Shown here one piece after another: positions 46,301 through 49,300 of a stretch of DNA of 64,000 nt (its first letter is position 1; each line of letters begins with the position of its first letter). The stretch spans positions 82,008,644 to 82,072,643 of the forward strand of contig NC_088295.1 of assembly GCF_032854445.1 (NCBI RefSeq), given 5' to 3'. Under the pieces are notes generated by a model, which made no database searches, was not told where the DNA came from, and worked only from the letters and a program-made list of their open reading frames with translations. A program made the translations under genes and the position numbers. Origin of the DNA: Liolophura sinensis (taxonomy: Eukaryota > Mollusca > Polyplacophora > Chitonida > Chitonidae).

Positions 46301-49300
46301 GAATTTTGTTCTTTAGCAGCAAAGGCAGTGAATGTGGAGCCCGAGGTGTTGTCAGCTGCCTCCATTCTACCTTGAATTGTAAGATCACCACTGGCGTTGA
46401 CAAGAGTAAATTCCCCTTGACTGCTGAACGGATAGTCAAGACCGTCAAATGTGTGGATATGGGGCCCGCCCTTGAAGAACGCTGGAACAGAACAAGAATT
46501 TTAAGGTCAGTAAAGCAAAGTATCCTATCTTGTATGGACACCAGAAACACGTAAATGCTATACGAAAAACATCAAAAACATCATGTTTGTTCTGTCATGG
46601 TACATATCTGCCAGCTGCCGACCAGCAATCAGACATACATGTTGTCGGGGGAGGATATATACATCTTTCACAGGATGATACATACAGGTGTCTGTACTCT
46701 CTGACTGTGCATACCTGCACCTGCCGATCAGTGGTCACTTACCTGTTGTGAGAGAACGGTAGATTTTACAGGTGTCTACATGTCTGTACTCTCTGATGGT
46801 ACATACCTGCCAGCTGCTGACAAGTGGTCACTTAGCTGTTGTGAGAGAACGGTAGTTCTTACAGGTCTACAGTCTACATGTCTGTACTCTCTGACTGTAG
46901 CCTACATATCTGCATTTGGTGATCAGTAGTCACTTATCTATTGTGAGAGAACGGTAGTTATTACAGGTTTCTACATGTCTGTACTCTCTGATGGTACATA
47001 CCTGTACCTGTCGACCAGTGGCCATTTAACTGTTGTGAGAGGACGGTAGTTCTTACAGGTATCTACATGCCTATACCCCTGGGATGAAAAGATTTTAAAA
47101 ATCGGTTTTGCTCTTGCTCGCTTTAGCGTTCAGCGCTGAGAGATAAGAGCAAGGAAACAGGACGGGTTGGCTCGGTGTTAGTATAACGTAACTGTAAGGG
47201 GTGTCATGGGTGGGGTGCCATGGCTAGTGTCTTCGGCATGATACTTCAGTGGTGGTGGCACTTTAGTGGCACCCTACCAAGGTACAGAATATGGAAATGG
47301 TAGTTCTCACAGGTGTCCCTACTCTCTTGTGGTGCATACCTGGCGATAAAATTACCGAAGAGCTGTCAGACTTACCGGTTGTGGGGGGAAGGTAGTTCTC
47401 ACAGTTGTCCACAGGTCTGTACTCTCTGTATTGCTCACACATGTCTGTCTCCACACAGCAGCTCATGAAAGCCTCTTCATCCCCGGATTTGGAGACACTA
47501 ACCGTTGTCTTTCCATAGATGTTCGTTTGTAAGCTGTTGTAGAAGGCACTTTCTGGTTCGTTGTTGTAACAGCAGTGCTGAAGATGAAAGATTCTCACCA
47601 GTGCATGTGTTTCTGTTCGACATGTGACGTGATAATTTAAAATTAAACCCCTGTGACCAAGAGACAGAGTACATGCGAATCCTAGGAACTATACAGGCAC
47701 CTAGGATAGAGGGGAATGAGCCTGTATTGTACAATAGTTTTACGTTGTCTTGAAGATAGTATGACTTCAGATGGAATGGTGTGTAGTATATTACTGGAGT
47801 CTATAACTAGCCAAATAGACAAGCAACCACACAGCGTACTTATATCTAATTGTTTCTTATGGCTTCTCAAACACTTCTGTAGACATTTGTAGACAGTTCT
47901 CTGTCGGGTGCAGTTTATTTTTTCATAAAAGTGTAACAACTATTACTTTATTTTAACAATAATAATATAATTTACAAGCGATGACTTACCAGAGTTATCC
48001 CAGAGTCGTCGGTAAATCTGCTGTTAGCACAATAGGATTCCTGATCAAGCTTGTATTCCGGGTCTACCGAGGCTTGCTGGTAGTTACAAGGGCATCTGCC
48101 CACAAAGTTTGCCAACGTGGCTCTTTCCGTCACCTTCTCCTTAAGCAACCAATCTTGGCAGAGTTTATGATTGTTACTGCCTATATTCGCTGGGTTTTCG
48201 AGTTCGAAAGCCCACCGGCCCAAGGTACCTAAAATTATGTGGAGAAAAATGAAAAAAATGTGGAAGTAACAATGGATTTGGCCACTCTATGGCGATTACA
48301 ACCGGGTTCAGTTCATGTTCAGTTTGTTGGGGCCCAAAAGTATTACGCCTAAACACCCAGTGCAACCGGAATCCATTATGTGTAGTTGTGGATATAAAGG
48401 TACTAACTTTACCGTTTTCGATTAAAATTCTACTCTTTCATTTATACACCAGATTAAAGTTATATGACCTACCCCCCCCCCCCTCCCCCATTCCTGTCTC
48501 CAAGTCGTCTAATGTGTCGTCTGAGATGTTGTGTTGAGCTGTGATGTATTGTCTTTTAATCGATTTTGCTCTGTTGTTGTGTTTTATTGACTACCGAGTA
48601 GTCGATGAATAAATGATAAATAAATAAATATATACTCTTTCGAACATGGTCTTACCTAAATTACCCTTAGTGGACGCAATGTCGAAAGCTGCTGGCTTGC
48701 CTGATGGATACAGATTGAAAGACGTATTTCCTCCTGAGTAACCTATATACACGTCCCTATTCGCATTCTCCTCCCATCCATTTTCCTTCCCGTCGTAGTT
48801 AAAGTACAGAAACGTCCGGTTTCCATCGGATATTAAGGACAGCTGGAATGTCATGGTCTGCGATTGAAAAAAATCAAGATGTAATACAAATTTTACCGTA
48901 CGATGTTTTTAAACCTTTTGGTATTCCCGGAACATTAACAGTCGACATTAGTAGTGAAAGTTTGGCGGTAAAGCTGATACGGGTGTGGTTTTATTGATTC
49001 GCTTTTGCTGTTGAACAGTTTTGGAATTATTTTCTGTGTCTTAAGATCTTTGTGCCCAAAGATTAAAATTACCGGTGTCAACAGATAAAATGCTTGTTTT
49101 ACCACCATGGTTTGGTATTTTACCACGGGTGTTTTGCTGTGTTACCACGGTGTTTTTCTGTTTCACAACAGTTATAGGTCAGTGAGCATCAAAACACAAT
49201 GACTGGAAAGTAGTGTGACCGTCTTGCTCATATTATCAACTAATCACCAAACGGAAGGTGGCCGAAAAGACAGTGCATTGATATGTATGAAACATTAGCC

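Follow-up and report, generated by a model that had tools for sequence, protein, structure and literature searches.

Introduction

Tandem duplications of exon-intron boundaries that resemble minisatellites were described for amphioxus and designated 'mirages' (PMC3087553, PMC3902484). The available portions of these reports place mirages in Adh3, in the globin genes BflGb6 and BflGb9, in troponin C and in PGBD5, and state that splicing is not disturbed by them; length instability is reported there for the mirages of Adh3 and BflGb6. According to the same portions, the tandem units span the authentic exon-intron boundary on the donor or the acceptor side, many of them keep their AG or GT signals, and the inner units are more alike than those at the edges of an array. 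Duplication across an exon-intron boundary, by which splice signals are copied, also underlies the Rogers model of intron gain by tandem duplication, for which potato RdRp is named in the accessible part of the report (PMC4974935).

For molluscs, no report of such arrays was found in a literature that was covered in part and judged by titles and the openings of abstracts, which is not a proof of absence. A 27-bp minisatellite is present in an intron of an abalone TSSK1-like gene, and the accessible part of that report does not say how it relates to an exon edge (PMC6905558); a report on Lucina haemoglobin (PMC4732748) is, as far as its accessible part goes, unrelated. The chiton genome considered here was first named Liolophura japonica (PMC11068029), a name since corrected to Liolophura sinensis (PMC12441733), as given in the accessible parts of both papers.

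This paper deals with a tandem array at an exon edge of this chiton and with similar arrays in the same genome. The preferred reading, to which we give a probability of roughly 0.82, is that the array is a mirage-type minisatellite seeded at the exon edge, that it is passive, that the authentic donor is the one used, and that the process recurs in this genome.

The Host Gene

The window, that is, the whole stretch of 64,000 nucleotides that was analysed, lies on contig C1, and the array is located in a gene on its minus strand which was defined by our own predicted gene model and which we take to be MUC4-like. Two exons of this gene are of importance here:

47376..47577, minus strand: exon located after the start of AMOP and before the VWD exon, phase 1, with an open frame and an 11.0-bit donor CCG/GTAAGT
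46266..46481, minus strand: next exon, start of the VWD domain (VWD match, E 6e-5)

The reading frame of the first continues into the VWD exon at 46481. No Pfam match was obtained for exon 47577-47376 itself, and the exon before it has an AMOP match (E 0.0015) below the Pfam cut-off. In the same gene, Pfam identified VWD exons (E 6e-5 and 6e-6) and NIDO exons (E 1e-19 and 1e-6); an EGF exon, a MUC4-type C8-3 match below the cut-off and a membrane segment, read by eye, are also present. A repeated exon end was found at one of the 21 predicted donors tested in this gene, a set that left out a weak candidate at 43095 and the donors of the last predicted segment.

The gene contains further repeats. 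A giant mucin exon (52144-64000, minus strand) consists of 435-bp (145-codon) repeats with 95-96% matches (TRF); its frame is open for at least 4114 codons within the window, and the repeats run on in L013:1-10000. In an intron, at 49416-49698, a composite repeat was identified in which long AT runs are combined with AAAAACCAAGCACATATATATAA units at two places.

Organization of the Array

The intron after exon 47577-47376 holds a tandem array with units of about 92-102 bp, of which the exon end is the first. After the exon end and its 48 nt of intron come one truncated copy, the four good copies A-D and, last, the diverged copy E:

47328..47429, minus strand: unit U0, consisting of 54 nt of authentic exon end followed by 48 nt of intron; local alignment, next unit in register
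47293..47327, minus strand: unit U1, truncated copy of about 35 nt, cut by an insert; local alignment, follows U0 in register at 47327
47082..47292, minus strand: dispersed repeat within the array, which splits U1 from A; similar sequence elsewhere
46991..47081, minus strand: unit A, TTAAAT at the donor position; local alignment
46894..46990, minus strand: unit B, ATAAGT at the donor position; local alignment
46796..46893, minus strand: unit C, CTAAGT at the donor position, 5-nt insertion causing a frameshift; local alignment
46704..46795, minus strand: unit D, CAG/GTAAGT intact (GT from 46742), scoring 12.6 bits where the authentic donor scores 11.0
46600..46703, minus strand: unit E, diverged, GTATGT at 46638; local alignment

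By local alignment, the exon end is matched at 47076-47026, 46990-46932, 46893-46830 and 46795-46737, in truncated form at 47318-47293 and in diverged form at 46703-46629. TRF reported 92 bp x 4.1 over 46689-47076 and also 195 bp x 1.9 over 46689-47060. A sequence-only reading of this DNA had described at least four degenerate tandem copies of the exon end with its donor, and these correspond to A-D with exactly the donor hexamers that it gave. Its description was incomplete in that the exon end is itself the first unit, that two more damaged copies, U1 and E, exist, and that an insert splits the array. The intact GTAAGT had been placed at about 46736, while the GT of D begins at 46742, and the peptide quoted for the copies turned out to be a composite which no single copy reads exactly.

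Sequence similar to the insert was found by local BLAST over 334,918 bases of this genome, in four of 20 sampled 10-kb stretches (L021, L028, L031, L035) and also at 36462-36603 of the window.

The units span the exon-intron boundary, and the array is contiguous with the authentic junction, U0 passing in register into U1 and A-E following after the insert; in both respects it corresponds to the mirages as described in the accessible parts of the amphioxus reports. The host, in contrast, is a chiton (Mollusca) and not amphioxus, the array is broken by a dispersed repeat, unlike mirages, and it is more decayed, since A-D are 75-84% identical, compared to 81-100% given for the BflGb6 mirage in the accessible part of its description. 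With ordinary intronic minisatellites or VNTRs the array shares its repeat character (here a period of about 92 bp), its degenerate units and possible higher-order pairs; unlike in these, coding sequence and a donor form part of the unit, and the exon itself serves as the first one. The copying of splice signals by a duplication across the boundary is shared with the intron gain model, as far as its accessible description goes. However, a newly gained intron is not indicated as far as a relative on contig C8 shows, which seems to have an intron at the same position, and the copies are contained within the intron.

Specificity of the Exon Match

When the exon end with 12 nt of intron was aligned to the intron, the best score was 63, compared to a mean of 18.1 and a maximum of 30 for 1000 shuffled introns; the exon part alone scored 52, with a shuffled maximum of 28 (1000). 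In the rest of the window, the best score among 276 blocks was 24. A 261-bp query from the array gave four matches in the assembly (609,464,459 bases in 632 contigs), all of them in this array or in the exon end. A dispersed-repeat origin of the copies was rejected on this evidence, which is strong rather than absolute, as the search skips very common words.

As a local yardstick, 519 minus-strand 65-mers were sampled without the mucin array, and 13 of them scored as high against their own next 882 bases. Twelve of these 13 overlap TRF arrays, the MUC4-like array among them; minisatellites are thus common here, and the special point is that this array contains an exon edge.

Exon-Edge Arrays Elsewhere in the Genome

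A second array of this kind, of the acceptor type, was identified in the same window:

12623..12833, plus strand: array of about 30-bp units TTCTGTTATTTACAG/TCGCCTACCTCC leading into HIBCH exon 12822-12959 (TRF and shuffle test)

The exon matches ECH_2 (E 8e-15) and 3-hydroxyisobutyryl-CoA hydrolase (E 1.9e-10), and the unit consists of the acceptor and the first 16 or so nt of the exon. The array scored 45, against a shuffled maximum of 28 (1000); the 16-nt exon part alone scored 21, which was reached by six of 1000 shuffles. YAG sites are located at 12619, 12649, 12679, 12709, 12737, 12764, 12792 and 12822. Their spacing is 27-30 nt and no unit lacks one, so that all seven upstream units keep a YAG. 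Each of nine upstream YAG starts tested before the exon brings in a stop.

A 27-bp array at 7995-8313 (plus strand) begins some 12 nt into the intron that follows a HIBCH-like exon, which ends at 7983 by eye and has no Pfam match. It was rejected as an exon-edge array, its exon part scoring 14 with shuffles of up to 28.

A donor-type array was identified on contig C9:

L016:6127-6998, minus strand: donor-type array, 45 bp x 19; exon part 51 against a shuffled maximum of 29 (300)

The gene, presumably SUSD2-like, lies near AMOP matches, and its exon has weak TIG-like matches below the cut-off. The exon ends ...GGGGAATACGTATACC/GTGAGT, and the 45-bp copies carry the same exon end. Of the 19 copies, 17 retain the donor GT; the donor columns have one odd base each, compared to a mean of 2.8, and seven of the 45 columns have fewer.

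The genome was also searched for AGGTRAGT occurring three times at 20-50 nt, which gave 883 forward and 1171 reverse matches, compared to 676 and 450 for a backwards control; the matches overlap and do not represent arrays, and they exceed the control by less than twofold. Among the 100 matches listed out of 2054 (C1, 0.3-5.5 Mb), at least 19 clusters were recognised by eye, and ten of these, all in C1:0.5-5.5 Mb, were sampled non-randomly. In three of the ten (L038, L041 and L046), the array starts at the edge of an exon and repeats the end of that exon, each with none of 300 shuffles reaching its score. The exon of L038 codes for ankyrin (E 3e-11) and that of L046 for an Fe-hydrogenase domain (E 2e-12). 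The exon of L041 has a SNF2 domain (E 9e-6), and its best solved-structure matches are 'Helicase-like protein' entries (E 2.6e-18), which we take to be MOT1, the gene being presumably MOT1-like. In all three arrays the units are near-identical, and GT is kept at regular spacing in 8/11, 4/5 and 4/4 units, respectively, of the parts fetched.

Among the other sampled clusters, L040 and L044 failed the exon test: their arrays lie close to a presumed end of an exon but contain no exon sequence. For L045 (fucosidase-like, below the cut-off), the exon part failed as well; with 12 nt of intron it scored 30, against a shuffled maximum of 24, and this array repeats the donor and the intron start only. 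No exon was recognised by eye in L039 and L042, no Pfam match was obtained for L039, L040 and L044, and in L037 and L043 the array runs past the edge of the sequence examined. In 20 stretches of 10 kb spaced at fixed intervals along C1 (18) and C8 (2), 40 arrays with a period of at least 10 were counted after merging, a number that was obtained irrespective of exons and gives no exon-edge rate.

In total, six exon-edge arrays were identified in a small part of one genome: MUC4-like, HIBCH, L016, L038, L041 and L046. Elsewhere in this chiton genome, too, the process has thus affected exon edges, and both the donor and the acceptor side are represented, as in the mirages.

Fate of the Copied Donors

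The sequence-only reading had proposed that selection removed most of the decoy donors. Three of the four good copies have lost the G at donor position +1, to three different bases, which makes this column the only one with four states among the 91 gap-free columns of A-D. In a neutral simulation on the inferred tree, four states occurred with a probability of 0.0005-0.002 and loss of the G from at least three of the four copies with 0.02-0.03, and the unusually variable column is counted against a passive array. Against this, random column draws gave P=0.040 for the two donor columns together and, when the four key columns of the two donor-like sites were taken, P=0.05, so that the statistical case for selection is marginal (P 0.04-0.05).

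The second donor-like site, CAG/GTATG[TC], scores 8.9-9.6 bits on matrices that were set down from general knowledge, as for all splice-site bit scores given here. It is intact in U0, A, C and D, and thus in three of the four good copies, and another exon predicted in this gene (37450) has CAG/GTATGT as its donor. The highest-scoring site also survives, in D. In the intron as a whole, six sites reach at least 8 bits, the authentic donor included, compared to a background of 1.02 such sites per kb and strand. The other arrays keep most of their sites: over four other arrays, 33 of the 39 copies retain the GT, a count that is biased for L038, L041 and L046, which were found via their intact donors, but not for L016, and the regularly spaced upstream HIBCH units all keep their YAG. 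It is therefore improbable that selection actively removed decoy donors from the copies; donors in the copies would rather decay with age than by targeted selection.

Possible Use of the Copies in Splicing

An intact copy had also been suggested to give a longer alternative transcript. This is formally possible, but the extension to the donor of D (46743) carries several in-frame stops, and stops are likewise present in extensions of the exon to the second donors of A and C (47002 and 46807).

Within U0, 36 nt downstream of the authentic donor, a second donor CAG/GTATGC of 8.9 bits is present (47340-47375, minus strand). The 36-nt extension to 47340 is open and in frame, which counts against the passive reading, and from its sequence 47340 is a possible small alternative donor.

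A copy that is in use as an alternative exon or donor, and gives a regulated isoform, would be consistent with this in-frame donor, with the consensus donor of D and with two open cassettes before it, 48 nt from 46790 and 33 nt from 46775. However, these are two of eight AG starts tested before D's donor, the other six of which lead to stops, and both acceptors are unconvincing by eye, 46790 being without a clear pyrimidine tract. In addition, copy C is frameshifted, and A-C have no donor at the place where D has its own. In the exon-derived part of A-D, six of ten changes are at third codon positions, a weak hint in favour of such use, and this part varies less among the copies than the intron-derived part; a purely passive array need not show either, and both count against passivity. 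On balance, a regulated isoform is regarded as very unlikely.

Most likely, as judged from the sequence, the array is passive. The authentic donor, the first in the series, would be the one at which splicing takes place, and a transcript made from a distant decoy would contain stops and probably be degraded.

History of the Array

Units A-D have in common a 2-nt deletion after the donor and a number of bases, none of them found in U0 or E; other bases are shared by E with A-D against U0. In the tree, A-D are separated from E and U0 with a support of 70, which may correspond to the greater likeness of the inner units given in the accessible accounts of amphioxus mirages; inside this group, B and D join with 71 and A joins B and D with 33. 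AB and CD are identical in 160 of 195 columns, in agreement with the 195-bp period of TRF. It is only suggested by this that AB and CD are a duplicated pair, the tree grouping B with D while A with C is unsupported.

A relative of the gene was identified on contig C8 (L005), with an AMOP match over the cut-off. It has a matching exon end, C..Y...RP...C..Y.PP, followed by a donor-like ACC G/GTAATT at the same place and in the same phase, where splicing is putative; intron gain was rejected as an explanation of the array on account of this site. When the exon end and unit D were compared with the C8 relative, nothing above noise was obtained, and TRF on L015, which covers this relative, detected no such array. 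Since the relative keeps the exon end and has no such array, the junction is likely the source and not the product. That the exon end was derived from an older minisatellite has nothing in its favour beyond the similarity of exon and array, and is scarcely credible given this homologous exon end with its donor-like site (putatively spliced) in the same phase and without such an array.

Tandem duplication seeded at the exon edge, as the sequence-only reading had it, is well supported by the register of U0 with U1 and by the stepwise sharing among A-E, which also indicates that the duplication proceeded in steps. A local tandem duplication, by replication slippage or unequal exchange, would have copied the last 54 or so nt of the exon and about 48 nt of the intron into the intron. 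After divergence, a derived copy would have been amplified to A-D, perhaps as a two-unit block, and from the anatomy of the array the dispersed repeat probably landed in it later. The exon side presumably stays single because it is coding, while the intron side can grow.

Conclusions

As far as the partly covered literature goes, such arrays at several exon edges of a mollusc are new, having been known before mainly from amphioxus. By itself, the MUC4-like array would be no more than a curiosity; what makes it notable is that such arrays recur, in one mollusc genome, at exons that are unrelated to each other. The presence of both donor and acceptor types in one mollusc speaks against junction-seeded minisatellites being a peculiarity of cephalochordates.

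We hold the odds to be about even that exon edges are a general, perhaps still active, seed of minisatellites in the chiton, with at least a hundred edges that may carry junction copies. Within such a setting, the arrays may range from fresh ones with near-perfect donors to ones as decayed as the MUC4-like array, and a series from young to old arrays shows the fate of decoy sites. With many copies beside a real splice site, RNA-seq would show how far position, and not sequence, decides the choice. If true, the genome would provide a genome-wide natural experiment on how the spliceosome chooses the authentic site among near-identical decoys, and the arrays would continually add to the length of introns and provide material from which new exons and introns can form.
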